Source of the DNA: Patescibacteria group bacterium
GTDB lineage: Bacteria > Patescibacteriota > Minisyncoccia > Phycocordibacterales > BOKC01
NCBI GenBank assembly: GCA_016860785.1
Contig: BOKC01000004.1
Location: forward strand, 1 to 64,000
Reading direction: 5' to 3'
DNA length: 64,000 nucleotides
The stretch's first letter is position 1; each line of letters starts with the position of its first letter. Below are positions 21,593 through 63,014 of this stretch, in pieces. The notes beneath the pieces were generated by a model, which was given only the letters and a program-made list of their open reading frames with translations, had not been told where the DNA came from and did not search any database. The translations under genes and the position numbers were made by a program.

Positions 21593-21645
21593 TTAGACCC
21601 TAGGCCTTAGGAGAAAACAGAATTTTCCTAAAGCCTAGGGTCTAA
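21593..21645. repeat. Large inverted repeat between smpB and tmRNA
   Basis: A 20-nt arm at 21593-21612 and its complement at 21626-21645 match at 19 of 20 positions over a 13-nt loop. The arms contain the CCCTAGG unit found in other spacers of this window. No T-run follows, so termination is uncertain. A smaller CCGCCAGCTGGCGG palindrome lies just upstream. Confidence 0.75.
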
Positions 21646-21665
21646 TTCCCTAGAGCTTCATATTT

Positions 21666-22076
21666 GGGGATGATCGGCCTAGACAAAAGACTGATTGTCT
21701 GCACGCAAGGCAGAGCTCCAAGAACTCTCAAAAAGCTTGGAAACTTCTAAGTGCAAACAACTTAGTTGCAAAAGCAAAATCAGTTGTATCTCCGTATTTC
21801 GGGGCCAACCAATTTGCTTTCGCTCACGCTTAATAAAGCTCGAGCGACATCTCTTCTTTCGACTTCCGATAAAGAGTTAGAGGTGTAATATTTTCGGGAT
21901 AGAGATTGAATTGTCTCATTCAATTTTCGAAACTTATGGGGCTCGGTGAATAAGTGTTTTGTTTGTTTTAAAGCTTATTCATTTAAATCCGCTGTAAGCG
22001 GAAAAAACAAACTATGCCTTGTAGAGAAGTACATTTAATCACCTTTTGCACGCGAGTTCGATTCTCGCCATCTCCA
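21666..22076 (+). ncRNA. ssrA: tmRNA (transfer-messenger RNA)
   Basis: The tRNA-like ends pair: GGGGATG (21666-21672) with CATCTCC (22069-22075), discriminator A at 22076. The T-arm GCGAG/CTCGC around TTCGATT is intact. The tag reading frame starts with GCA at 21753 and runs 26 codons to tandem stops at 21831-21836. The tag begins ANNLVAKA and ends ANQFAFAHA. CCA is not encoded. SmpB is encoded just upstream and FtsH nearby, forming a ribosome-rescue group. The tag's last residues (His-Ala) differ from the usual Leu-Ala-Ala type. The 411-nt length is at the long end of the usual range. Confidence 0.95.
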
Positions 22077-39657: not shown

Positions 39658-39718
39658 AGAACTAGGGTTTAGCGACTAGGGTTTAGGGTTTAGGAAAATT
39701 CAAAACACCTAACCCTAA
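39658..39718. repeat. Telomere-like TAGGGTTTAGG spacer repeat
   Basis: Between the predicted start of the rpsN transcript and rpsN itself lie three or more copies of (AC)TAGGGTTTAG(GG/CG), followed by an inverted CCTAACCCTAA copy. The same wording occurs at 58440-58470 and related units occur at other spacers. It would lie in the 5' untranslated region and could fold back on itself. Confidence 0.7.
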
Positions 39719-50766: not shown

Positions 50767-50816
50767 AAAATTAGGTTATTAGGATGTTAGGTTTTAGGAA
50801 TTTTCCTAGTGCCTAG

Positions 50817-58064: not shown

Positions 58065-58430
58065 ATGGAAAAAGATTGTATTTTTTGCAAAATTGCCAGA
58101 AAGGAAATGTCGGCTCACATAGTTTACGAAGACGAAAACTTTATGGCTTTTTTAGACATCAATCCACAGACACCGGGACACGTTCAAGTTGTTCCCAAAG
58201 AGCATTACCGTTGGGTTTGGGATGTGCCAAATATCGGTGAATATTTTGAAATTACCCGGAAAATCGCCCTAGCCCAGAGAAAGGCCTTTAAAACAGAGTG
58301 GATTTTATGCCGAATTATCGGCGACGAACAGCCCCACGCCCACATTTGGGTCTTCCCAGCCGGAGATGCCGAAGGACACAAAAGCGACCTACCAGAGAAC
58401 GCTGAAAAGATAAAAGAAAACCTTGAATAG
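58065..58430 (+). CDS. HIT family protein
   Basis: The 121-aa protein begins MEKDCIFCKIARKEM, with two of the usual zinc cysteines. It contains DENFMAFLDINPQTPGHVQVVPKEH, typical of histidine-triad hydrolases that act on AMP-linked compounds. The triad motif reads HAHIWVF: the first two His are present, the third is Trp. The middle, nucleophilic His is kept, so activity is plausible but altered. A TATAAT at 58052-58057 lies only 7 nt before the ATG, again suggesting a leaderless mRNA. Confidence 0.9.
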   Translation: MEKDCIFCKIARKEMSAHIVYEDENFMAFLDINPQTPGHVQVVPKEHYRWVWDVPNIGEYFEITRKIALAQRKAFKTEWILCRIIGDEQPHAHIWVFPAGDAEGHKSDLPENAEKIKENLE

Positions 58431-58435
58431 GGTCT

Positions 58436-58475
58436 AGAGACTAGGGTTTAGGGTTTAGGGAAATACTAGAAAATT
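58436..58475. repeat. Telomere-like TAGGGTTTAGGG spacer repeat
   Basis: Directly after the HIT stop the sequence repeats CTAGAGACTAGGGTTTAGGG with at least two TAGGGTT units, closely matching the spacer at 39658-39718. It does not fold into a terminator with a T-run. The stretch from here to 58578 shows no gene. Confidence 0.7.
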
Positions 58476-58578: not shown

Positions 58579-58606
58579 TTGACAAAAAATAAAAAAGGTA
58601 TAGAAT
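58579..58606 (+). promoter_or_regulatory. Promoter of ncRNA candidate 1
   Basis: TTGACA (58579-58584), a 16-nt A-rich spacer and TAGAAT (58601-58606) form a near-consensus promoter. The predicted start, near 58611-58613, coincides with the first base of the closing stem of the RNA. Confidence 0.78.
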
Positions 58607-58610
58607 CTTC

Positions 58611-58777
58611 GACAGAGCGTTCGGGTAGCGATTTGGGGCTGTGCCCTGCGCCGTGACCCCGAACGAAGAGGTAGAGGATGTGCGGAAGAAGTCATTCACC
58701 TTCCGTACAGGAGAATCCTCTGTCTTTAATCATTTTCTCCACAGCCCGTCGCGAGTTATGCCCTCGCGACGGGTTTT
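58611..58777 (+). ncRNA. Undescribed structured ncRNA candidate 1 (about 167 nt)
   Basis: Hairpin A: GTTCGGG (58619-58625) with CCCGAAC (58658-58664), and inside it GGGC/GCCC with a 3-nt loop. Hairpin B: AGAGGAT plus GTGCGGAAG (58673-58688) pairs with CTTCCGTAC (58700-58708) and ATCCTCT (58715-58721), a 16-bp stem interrupted only by a 6-nt bulge AGGAGA. GACAGAG (58611-58617) can alternatively pair with CTCTGTC (58718-58724), competing with the base of hairpin B. An 11-bp perfect terminator (58745-58773) plus T-run ends it. It is not tmRNA, RNase P, SRP RNA or a recognised 6S. A 124-aa open frame crosses it but lacks coding signals. Confidence 0.7.
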
Positions 58778-58784
58778 CTATTTT
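58745..58784 (+). terminator. Intrinsic terminator of ncRNA candidate 1
   Basis: CCCGTCGCGAG (58745-58755) pairs perfectly with CTCGCGACGGG (58763-58773) over a 7-nt loop, followed by TTTTCTATTTT. Confidence 0.93.
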
Positions 58785-58830
58785 AAAAGTAAAATCTAAC
58801 GCGAGTATTCAATCCCCGGCAAGGTCTAGA

Positions 58831-58859
58831 TTGACAAGAAAAAGGCACGGTGGTAATCT
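58831..58859 (+). promoter_or_regulatory. Promoter of ncRNA candidate 2
   Basis: TTGACA (58831-58836), a 17-nt spacer and TAATCT (58854-58859) lie 50 nt after the first terminator. The predicted start is near 58866. Confidence 0.78.
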
Positions 58860-58865
58860 CCTAAA

Positions 58866-59103
58866 TAGAAACAAGCTAAGTTGGTCGCAACGAGCACGCA
58901 TTGAAATTGGCCTGCCTGCAATACGGCCACTAGTTCAGCGAAGCTCTTCACTTCGGGTTAACGGGCATGACCTGGAGGTTGCGACTCAACACGCCCACCC
59001 CACTTTGCAGGAAAGTGAGGTTGGGCGATGGGGTTGCGTCAGCGCGCACTAGCGTTACGCGAGACCCCAAGGGCCCGGCGACGCAAGGACGCCGGGCTTT
59101 TTT
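58866..59103 (+). ncRNA. Undescribed structured ncRNA candidate 2 (about 238 nt)
   Basis: Long-range stem: GTCGCAAC (58884-58891) with GTTGCGAC (58978-58985). It encloses CGAAG/CTTCG at 58939-58955 among other pairings. Next, GCCCA (58993-58997) with TGGGC (59022-59026) encloses CACTTT/AAAGTG (59001-59017). Then GGGGT-GCGT (59030-59039) pairs with ACGC-ACCCC (59057-59068). An 8-bp terminator stem (59073-59097) with a T-run ends it. The RNA is GC-rich in an AT-rich genome. It lacks RNase P and SRP core motifs. It may be a partner or homologue of candidate 1, but no obvious sequence similarity is visible. Confidence 0.7.
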
Positions 59104-59106
59104 CTT
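59073..59106 (+). terminator. Intrinsic terminator of ncRNA candidate 2
   Basis: GCCCGGCG (59073-59080) pairs with CGCCGGGC (59090-59097) over a 9-nt loop, followed by six or more T. It points away from pgk, which ends 25 nt further on the other strand; between them is a CTAGCGCCTAGCGCCTA spacer repeat. Confidence 0.93.
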
Positions 59107-59129
59107 ACTAAATTCCTAGCGCCTAGCGC

Positions 59130-60257
59130 CTAATTTCCTAGCTCAAGAGCTTCTATCCCCGGCAAGGTCTCGTTTGCTAAAAAATCTAGCATCGCGCCGC
59201 CGGCGGTTGAGACAAAACTGAATTTTTCCAAAACGGAGTCATCTAAAGCTGAAATTGTATCTCCACCGCCCATAATTGATTTAGCCGGACTTTGAGAAAT
59301 CAACTTGGCTAATTTCTGCGTACCTTCCAAAAAACCTTCTTCTAAATTCCCCATTGGGCCGTTCCAAAGAATAAATTTTGATTTTTGAATGACTCGATCA
59401 AGAACTTCTAAGTCACTGACCACCACGTCTTTTATCGCATCTTCTTCCAAAACATTGCCAATAGATTTTTTAATCGAGACATCTTTGTTTCCGACAATGA
59501 CGTTTTGAGAAAGAATAACTTTTGAGTTTTGTGAAAGTCGAATGATTTCTTCTTCTATGCCTTTTGAAATAAGGGATTTTCCAACCTCAAATCCTCGGGC
59601 TTTTAAAAAATCGTTGGCTAAAACACCGCCGATAAAAATATAATCGGCAGTTTTAATAAATTTTGCAAAGAGTGGAAGTTTGGTTTCGGTTTTTGCGCCG
59701 CCGAGAATAAAAAGAAAGGGGTGTTCGGGCGAAAAAACTTCCGATAAATTTTTCAATTCTTCCTCAAATAAAAATCCAGTGAAACTCGGAAGTTTTTTCG
59801 GCAAACCGACAATTGAGGCGTGCTTTCGGTGAGAGACCGAAAAAGCATCGTTTATATAAATATCACCGAATGAAGCCAGTTCATTAATAAAATTCTCATC
59901 GCAACTTTTTTCACCCGGCCAATTCCTTAAATTTTCTAAAAGAATTAAATCTCCGGCTCCGGCATTCTGAATAGCTATCTTAAGCTCGCTAAAATCCGAG
60001 GCAAAAAGAATGTCCGGAAAATATTTTCTCAAATACTCAAAAACTGGGCGCAAACTCAAAATATTTTTATTCTTGTCTTCCAAATGAGAAAGAAAGATTG
60101 TCTTAGCCCCACTCTCTCTTAAAAAATTGATAGTTGGCAGGACTTTTTTTATCCGGAAATTTTCCAGAGTTTTACCTTCTTTGATCGGAACATTTAGATC
60201 AATACGCAATAAAACCTTCTTGCCGGACAAATAACCAATTCCTTTTAAACTTCTCAC
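59130..60257 (-). CDS. pgk: Phosphoglycerate kinase
   Basis: Pgk makes ATP from 1,3-bisphosphoglycerate in glycolysis. The 375-aa protein has KVLLRIDLNVPIKEGK, the basic-patch SHLED region, the hinge and substrate motif INDAFSVSHRKHASIVG, LGGAKTETK and the C-terminal nucleotide site GGGDTISAL and FVSTAGGAML. It is about 15-20 residues shorter than typical. It overlaps tpiA by 4 nt, so both are translated together. Confidence 0.97.
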   Translation of the reverse strand: MRSLKGIGYLSGKKVLLRIDLNVPIKEGKTLENFRIKKVLPTINFLRESGAKTIFLSHLEDKNKNILSLRPVFEYLRKYFPDILFASDFSELKIAIQNAGAGDLILLENLRNWPGEKSCDENFINELASFGDIYINDAFSVSHRKHASIVGLPKKLPSFTGFLFEEELKNLSEVFSPEHPFLFILGGAKTETKLPLFAKFIKTADYIFIGGVLANDFLKARGFEVGKSLISKGIEEEIIRLSQNSKVILSQNVIVGNKDVSIKKSIGNVLEEDAIKDVVVSDLEVLDRVIQKSKFILWNGPMGNLEEGFLEGTQKLAKLISQSPAKSIMGGGDTISALDDSVLEKFSFVSTAGGAMLDFLANETLPGIEALELGN

Positions 60258-61070: not shown

Positions 61071-63014
61071 TCATTCTACCTCTCTCCAATTTAACACATT
61101 CCAGCCACCTGACGGACCGGAAGAGAATGTTATATCAGCTAGTCCAGACTCATAATTCACCTCTCCGCTTCCAGAAATTTCAATTCGGTGAGCAACCATC
61201 GCTTTTACCCCAGAACCACCGGCAAGCCGCAAGGTTCCGTAAGGAGCAACAACAACCGCAGCGCCAGCGCTACCGGCTACACTTATAGCTGGGTTTCCGC
61301 CACACAATGCATCAAACGGGCATAAGCTTGTTGAAACCAAAATTGGATAACTTGTTGGTTGTCCCGAACCCTCAAAAACAAAACTGCCACCAATATTTGC
61401 CCTACCACCAACTAAAATTATTCCACTGTCACCAAGATATGACGAATGGAGTTTAAATTTTTTTGTTCCAAAATCAACATTGCCATCAACCCAGACGGTC
61501 TTAGCCGGCATTAAAATGTTTGTGTTTCCGCCAGACATAGATAAATTGCCGTTTACTTTCAAAAACCCATTTATTATTGTTGTGCAACTTGAACCTATGC
61601 TCATGTTACCAGTAACCAAAAGGTCGCTAAAAACTGCTTGATAGCCGTCATTGCAACTAATGGTTAAATTACCGTTTACCTTGAGAGGGGTGTTTTTTTT
61701 AATCCCGTTCCACGGCACGGTCATTGTCTCGCTCTGTTCCCATAAATCACTGTTAGATATAGAGTCCAAAACCTCGTCCTTCCATGACTGAATATTTGAA
61801 TCAGAAATCGGAAAACCTTGAGGCGCTGGATCAGCACGAGACGTGTCACAAGGGGTTCCGTTAGGTCCTGGATAATTATTAATTGAATTTTGACAATACA
61901 TTGTGCCATAGGTCCTAGTCTGAATAATTGTGTTTGCCCAACTGTCACCGTTTATATTAAAAGGTTGATTCCACTGACTACCACCTTCCCCCTCAATCTT
62001 TGAAACAAAGCCATCAATAAATATTTCAAAATAGCCATCTAACCCAGAAGGAAAGGTGTCGTTCCAGGTCGAACCAAATCTCCCAACCTTGCCAACACCG
62101 CTCGCATAATCAGTATTTGCTCCGATTGTATAACTACCAGAATTATTGGCTTTGTCTAAGACCAACCAATAAGTAGTATCGGCTTGTATATATGGTTGAG
62201 AACCAAAAACCACCTCAACCCAACCATAAGATATGCCGACCGAACCGGCCGGCAATGTTACCTGCGCACCACTCACCATTGCGCCAGGGAGACCATTATT
62301 GTCAAAAGCAATTTTGACGGTAATATTGCTCGGACTTCCGCTTTTTCTCATATACATCCTGGCTTTGTAAACAGCGCCAGATTTGCTTAGCCGAAAACTT
62401 TGAGCAAAATCTTGATTACCGTTTGAAGAACCAAAAACCAAATTGTTGGGAGGAGTTGAGGGAGTACTATTAGATTGATCTGGGAAAGCTGTCGGACTGC
62501 TTGCCGCCACAACAGAACCGGTTACTGTTACGCCACTTAAACCGATAACATCACCATTAGAATAAATATTGCCATTCACGGTCGCCCCACCCTCTATACG
62601 AAAACCTCCGTTTCCTGACTGGACGGCATAATTAAACGAGCTACCTTCACCTAAAAATAATTCGCTTTTTATTTTACGAAAATAAGACCCCCTGTCTGCT
62701 TCAGCGACAATCACCTTATTTTGACCGGCATCAGTAATAGCAATATTTACATTATAATCACCAAAGTTAAATTGTTCGGATGATAAAACTTCATGCCCAT
62801 TAGCCAATCTATAAAAAACATCTTCCAGCCCGCCTTCGGCCAGAAAAAAGCTTTCTTTTGATTTAAAAAGGTCGGAGGCCACGGCAATTTGCTTTGAAAT
62901 CGGAATAGCAATTCCAAAAATTACAACAGAAGAAATAAGTAAAAAGAAAATAGCAGCAATCAAAACAGCTTGACCTCGGCAAAGTGATAAATCGTTATTT
63001 CTATTTTTTTTCAT
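61071..63014 (-). CDS. Large PilX-like secreted or pilus-associated protein (647 aa)
   Basis: The N-terminus is pilin-like: a short basic lead with RGQAVLIAAIFFLLISSVVIFGIAI, a long hydrophobic helix, then an FLAEGGLEDVFYRL stretch typical of PilX-type N-termini. The rest (about 100-640) is a beta-rich passenger rich in Gly, Ser, Asn and Thr. A carbohydrate- or choice-of-anchor-like beta sandwich lies at about 190-320. From about 440 on come repeated hydrophobic-Gly-N strands (VNGNLTISC, VTGNMSIGS, VNGNLSMSG, VDGNVDFG), which suggests a solenoid or polymer-forming fold. It probably sits at the pilus tip or cell surface. It is downstream of two prepilin genes. Confidence 0.75.
   Translation of the reverse strand: MKKNRNNDLSLCRGQAVLIAAIFFLLISSVVIFGIAIPISKQIAVASDLFKSKESFFLAEGGLEDVFYRLANGHEVLSSEQFNFGDYNVNIAITDAGQNKVIVAEADRGSYFRKIKSELFLGEGSSFNYAVQSGNGGFRIEGGATVNGNIYSNGDVIGLSGVTVTGSVVAASSPTAFPDQSNSTPSTPPNNLVFGSSNGNQDFAQSFRLSKSGAVYKARMYMRKSGSPSNITVKIAFDNNGLPGAMVSGAQVTLPAGSVGISYGWVEVVFGSQPYIQADTTYWLVLDKANNSGSYTIGANTDYASGVGKVGRFGSTWNDTFPSGLDGYFEIFIDGFVSKIEGEGGSQWNQPFNINGDSWANTIIQTRTYGTMYCQNSINNYPGPNGTPCDTSRADPAPQGFPISDSNIQSWKDEVLDSISNSDLWEQSETMTVPWNGIKKNTPLKVNGNLTISCNDGYQAVFSDLLVTGNMSIGSSCTTIINGFLKVNGNLSMSGGNTNILMPAKTVWVDGNVDFGTKKFKLHSSYLGDSGIILVGGRANIGGSFVFEGSGQPTSYPILVSTSLCPFDALCGGNPAISVAGSAGAAVVVAPYGTLRLAGGSGVKAMVAHRIEISGSGEVNYESGLADITFSSGPSGGWNVLNWREVE

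Follow-up and report, generated by a model that had tools for sequence, protein, structure and literature searches.

The gap between the HIT-domain protein gene and pgk appears to carry a small RNA gene, RNA2, that is specific to the lineage and transcribed on its own. We assign a probability of about 0.6 to this reading. RNA2 is probably a real but orphan sRNA gene that was recently gained, and its function can be addressed by inference only. The HIT–pgk gap is 699 nt long, and the window (the whole 64,000-nt stretch of DNA analysed) contains the following features around it:

58065–58430, + strand: gene of the HIT-domain protein
58579–58781, + strand: RNA1 unit, with a near-consensus TTGACA-16-TAGAAT promoter, two hairpins and a 13-bp terminator
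58831–58859, + strand: putative RNA2 promoter, TTGACA, 17-nt spacer and extended −10 TGG-TAATCT
58866–59103, + strand: RNA2, predicted ncRNA of approximately 238 nt, with ends deduced from the promoter and the terminator
59070–59105, + strand: intrinsic terminator of RNA2, GGGCCCGGCG/CGCCGGGC followed by TTTTTT, with 8 or more GC pairs
59130–60257, − strand: pgk (phosphoglycerate kinase), convergent with RNA2

Reading of the sequence placed the −35 box TTGACA at 58831–58836 and TAATCT at 58854–58859, with TGG, a TGN extension, directly 5′ of the latter. The −10 hexamer is weak, matching the consensus at 3 of 6 positions, and the promoter was therefore not listed by the consensus scan. Counting the pattern TTGACA-N16-18-TANNNT on both strands of the 64 kb yielded six sites, against 1.9 expected; two of the six start RNA1 and RNA2, on the same strand. 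The terminator had been missed by the built-in scan because its loop of 9 exceeds the allowed length. The preliminary description had claimed a TTGACA-17-TAATCT promoter, an RNA of about 238 nt and a GC-rich terminator. All three were recovered, the promoter with the additional TGG extension and the transcript with predicted ends. RNA2 combines a 5′ promoter (with a weak −10), a strong intrinsic terminator and a non-coding sequence, as is expected of an sRNA gene. A 27-codon frame starting at 59028 behind AGGAAAGTGAGG was rejected, since its stop codon lies beyond the RNA2 terminator.

The architecture of RNA1 (promoter, hairpins, terminator) is the same as that of RNA2. The claim of two consecutive ncRNA units in a gap of about 700 nt is borne out at the level of their signals. 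The repeat search reported no repeat common to the two units, and RNA1 had no match in Rfam.

The fold prediction for RNA2 comprises the following elements:

58880–58990, + strand: three-way-junction domain, with P1 (58880–58891/58978–58990), P2 (58892–58946) and P3 (58951–58977)
58913–58918, + strand: P2 loop TGCCTG (UGCCUG in the RNA), complementary to the P3 loop CGGGCA at 58962–58967
58992–59027, + strand: predicted composite hairpin P4
59029–59069, + strand: predicted composite hairpin P5

The minimum free energy of RNA2 was −114.1 kcal/mol (z about −6.6), and none of 200 shuffled sequences folded as well. This stability did not depend on the terminator: the 5′ domain (58878–58991) and the two hairpins (58991–59069) gave z values of −4.8 and −6.0, respectively, when folded alone. 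The complement of RNA2 reached only −101.8; a better fold of the + strand is expected if G–U pairs have been accepted in a transcript of this strand. The GC content of RNA2 is 58%; that of the window is 40%, and that of the tmRNA 41%. P1, GUUG-GUCGCAAC paired with GUUGCGAC-U-CAAC, closes the junction with P2 and P3, for which pair probabilities of 0.88–1.0 were calculated. P1 includes the long-range 8-bp stem noted earlier (58884–58891 with 58978–58985), whose mean pair probability was 1.0, and the two further composite hairpins noted with it correspond to P4 and P5. The earlier view of an independent structured ncRNA unit is well supported by the promoter and terminator, by the folding statistics and by the difference between the strands.

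The P2 and P3 loops could form six base pairs, including one G–U pair, a number reached by 0.9% of shuffled loops (p about 0.009). A kissing interaction between them is a possible feature of the modelled fold. The segment TTGCGTC of P5 (59034–59040) is complementary over 6–7 nt to GACGCAA in the terminator loop (59080–59086); this UUGCGUC/GACGCAA complementarity could be a pseudoknot or a chance match. The 14-nt 5′ leader is unpaired. In its architecture only, RNA2 resembles purine riboswitch-type junctions, having three helices and two hairpin loops able to pair. It differs from these in having no Rfam match and no downstream gene on its strand, and its loop pairing is only predicted.

A very unlikely explanation is that RNA2 is an unselected GC-rich, palindrome-rich stretch that folds by chance and is not a functional RNA. 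The lack of any conservation would fit this, as would the segment at 62161–62400 (+ strand), which lies opposite the long coding gene 61071–63014 and gave a similar z (−6.7, the strongest of the scan). Chance would, however, have to bring promoter, fold, strand bias and terminator together, twice in one 699-nt gap.

The Rfam comparison that had been suggested for this locus was carried out. RNA2 gave nothing at the gathering thresholds, and all matches obtained up to E = 10 fell far short of the family cut-offs. The anti-hemB RNA model (RF02837) overlapped RNA2 with 17 bits, mainly on the terminator, as compared with a gathering score of 49.5; this match is at chance level. The only RNase P RNA match (RF00010) in the genome was on another contig (C8), which counts against RNA2 as an aberrant RNase P, and the tmRNA was located at 21666 in the window. 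The 6S RNA model (RF00013) did not match the genome at E values up to 1. The SRP RNA models (RF00169 and RF01854) had no match in the genome either, and no domain IV motif was present anywhere in the window.

The lack of recognisable SRP RNA and 6S RNA in the host genome is what would speak for RNA2 as an aberrant housekeeping RNA (RNase P, 6S or SRP RNA). This reading is largely refuted, and we consider it extremely improbable: RNase P is encoded elsewhere, no meaningful weak Rfam match falls on RNA2, the window has no SRP domain IV motif, and RNA2 is absent from the genome of the sister species (G001), which also has no recognisable SRP RNA, so the lack is order-wide. RF00169 matched none of 9 genomes of the order, the host genome included, versus 11 of 14 control genomes. 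For RF01854, the counts were 0 of 21 (the host genome and 20 relatives) and 9 of 14. The SRP RNA of the order may be absent or strongly divergent. Since it was not recognised in any member searched, its lack in the host is uninformative about the RNA2 locus.

Homologues of RNA2 were sought by blastn and with a covariance model built from the single sequence. None was found in 397 genomes of the order or in 380 genomes drawn across the phylum, and hence no homologues with covarying stems that would make RNA2 a conserved structured RNA family; a single-sequence model has a limited reach, and very distant relatives could still exist. RNA1 had no homologue in 297 order genomes. The blastn matches of the two RNAs in the 397 order genomes were promoter-like or coding chance matches, and the 12 most suggestive ones all lay inside open frames. 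RNA2 is unique in its own genome, and no copy was found in the phage, plasmid and viral collections. A 16-mer of its core matched 11 viral contigs and a 20-mer matched two proteobacterial contigs, in neither case with useful extension past the word. The word match in the one contig examined (L100) was inside an oxidoreductase-like gene. As a positive control, the tmRNA was sought with the same blastn and recovered from 35 of 60 relatives, with 81% identity in G001. The absence of homologues while this control was recovered indicates that RNA2 is not a conserved housekeeping RNA. Its absence from hundreds of related genomes suggests that it is lineage-specific and not ancient and essential.

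The recJ–HIT–pgk gene order is conserved and widespread in the order. About half of the relatives have a HIT–pgk gap of 0–100 bp, and in others unrelated small genes occupy 300–1,100 bp there. Examples are a gene of a PaaX_M-domain protein, whose orientation differs between two genomes, and a methyltransferase gene in another genome. In G001, the only other genome of the genus compared, the gap is 97 bp long and has no RNA. Both flanking genes are on one contig, so this absence is not due to an assembly break. The idea of a conserved RNA pair tied to pgk or the HIT gene consequently did not hold: the synteny is kept, yet the sister gap is empty, and neither RNA was found in the other order genomes. 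As a separate observation, the PaaX_M (Cas2-like) domain genes in the HIT–pgk gaps of L011 and L022 are flanked by GCTATAGC-centred palindromes.

The convergent arrangement of the genes also allows RNA2 to be viewed as a structured insulator or antisense unit, whose hairpins and terminators would stop transcription from the HIT gene and interfere or pair with the pgk 3′ UTR transcribed from the opposite strand, with no function in trans. No U-tract-backed pgk terminator is apparent on the − strand between the pgk stop codon and RNA2. Transcripts that run on past pgk would therefore be antisense to RNA2. A terminator alone would be enough for insulation, though, leaving the three-way junction and the second promoter superfluous, and gaps of 0–100 bp suffice in about half of the relatives. 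We regard this role as rather unlikely.

The origin of RNA2 may be linked to a pair of repeats that involve the end of pgk:

58808–58841, + strand: imperfect direct copy of the pgk 3′ end (34 nt, 82%), containing the RNA2 −35 box
59151–59184, + strand: partner repeat inside the pgk 3′ end, where the pgk codons are on the − strand

The repeats are spaced by 343 bp, and the window has exactly two copies of their 16-nt core. The −35 box TTGACA of RNA2 sits where pgk reads TTGCTA. The upstream copy is likely a duplication or insertion scar. In the simplest account, the pgk 3′ end would have undergone an insertion or a duplication that made space, and point changes would have completed the RNA2 promoter. 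RNA2 may have arrived as part of an element or have arisen at this site; either is possible. Its presence here and absence from the sister species could also reflect a loss there and no gain here.

The same repeats, flanking RNA2 at a 343-bp spacing, could have been left by a small mobile element inserted at the pgk 3′ end, in which case RNA2 would be its structured remnant and the fold would represent element ends or a relic RNA. The empty site in G001 and the unrelated small genes at this junction in other families are in line with such an event. We find this reading unlikely in view of the uniqueness of RNA2 in the genome, the lack of phage, plasmid or viral matches, and a long frame that carries no transposase or integrase signature. 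The 124-aa frame crossing the RNA1 terminator had no Pfam match, and its tblastn matches against plasmids had E values of 0.08 or worse. The resemblance of a + strand frame (RARIEIGL) to IS30-type transposase N-termini obtained no support.

Taking RNA2 as a lineage-specific sRNA gene, we propose a joint gain of RNA1 and RNA2 at the convergent HIT/pgk junction, a place that tolerates insertions, later than the split from the sister species, with the −35 box of RNA2 arising in the stretch copied from the pgk 3′ end. The three-way junction of RNA2 would possibly be closed by the kissing-loop contact. RNA2 may then be a stable regulatory RNA that acts in trans, through pairing of the 5′ leader or a loop, or through protein binding; this is the weakest step of the proposal. 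Cis control is not proposed because there is no gene downstream of RNA2 on its strand. The analysis shows the signals and the predicted fold, and from these we infer transcription and trans activity. The sigma-70-type promoter, the short structured transcript, the intrinsic terminator and the fast gain or loss between related species liken RNA2 to bacterial intergenic trans-acting sRNA genes. RNA2 has no Rfam family, and its junction fold is more elaborate than that of a typical base-pairing sRNA. It is improbable that RNA2 represents a new class of compact structured RNAs, with a three-way junction locked by kissing loops and a specific biochemical role, such as binding a ligand, catalysing a reaction or scaffolding proteins, and that it travels as cargo from one reduced genome to another via the HIT/pgk junction.

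By its genome size and gene content, the host looks like one of the Candidate Phyla Radiation (Patescibacteria). Regulatory RNAs of genomes as reduced as this one seem to be little studied, and the top results of an open-access literature search included no paper on the ncRNAs of this group. A strongly folded RNA gene that one species has and its sister clearly lacks would suggest that new ncRNA genes are gained even in genomes of 0.6 Mb, and it would point to the HIT/pgk junction as a site where small cargo lands. As RNA2 is an orphan without conservation, its importance is moderate.

Short TAGG/CCTA heptamer-like repeats were observed at 103–134, 21627–21652, 39663–39694, 50772–50798, 58428–58459 and 59115–59140. 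The gap with the two RNAs is flanked by two of these clusters, which are oppositely oriented, and another cluster directly precedes the tmRNA.
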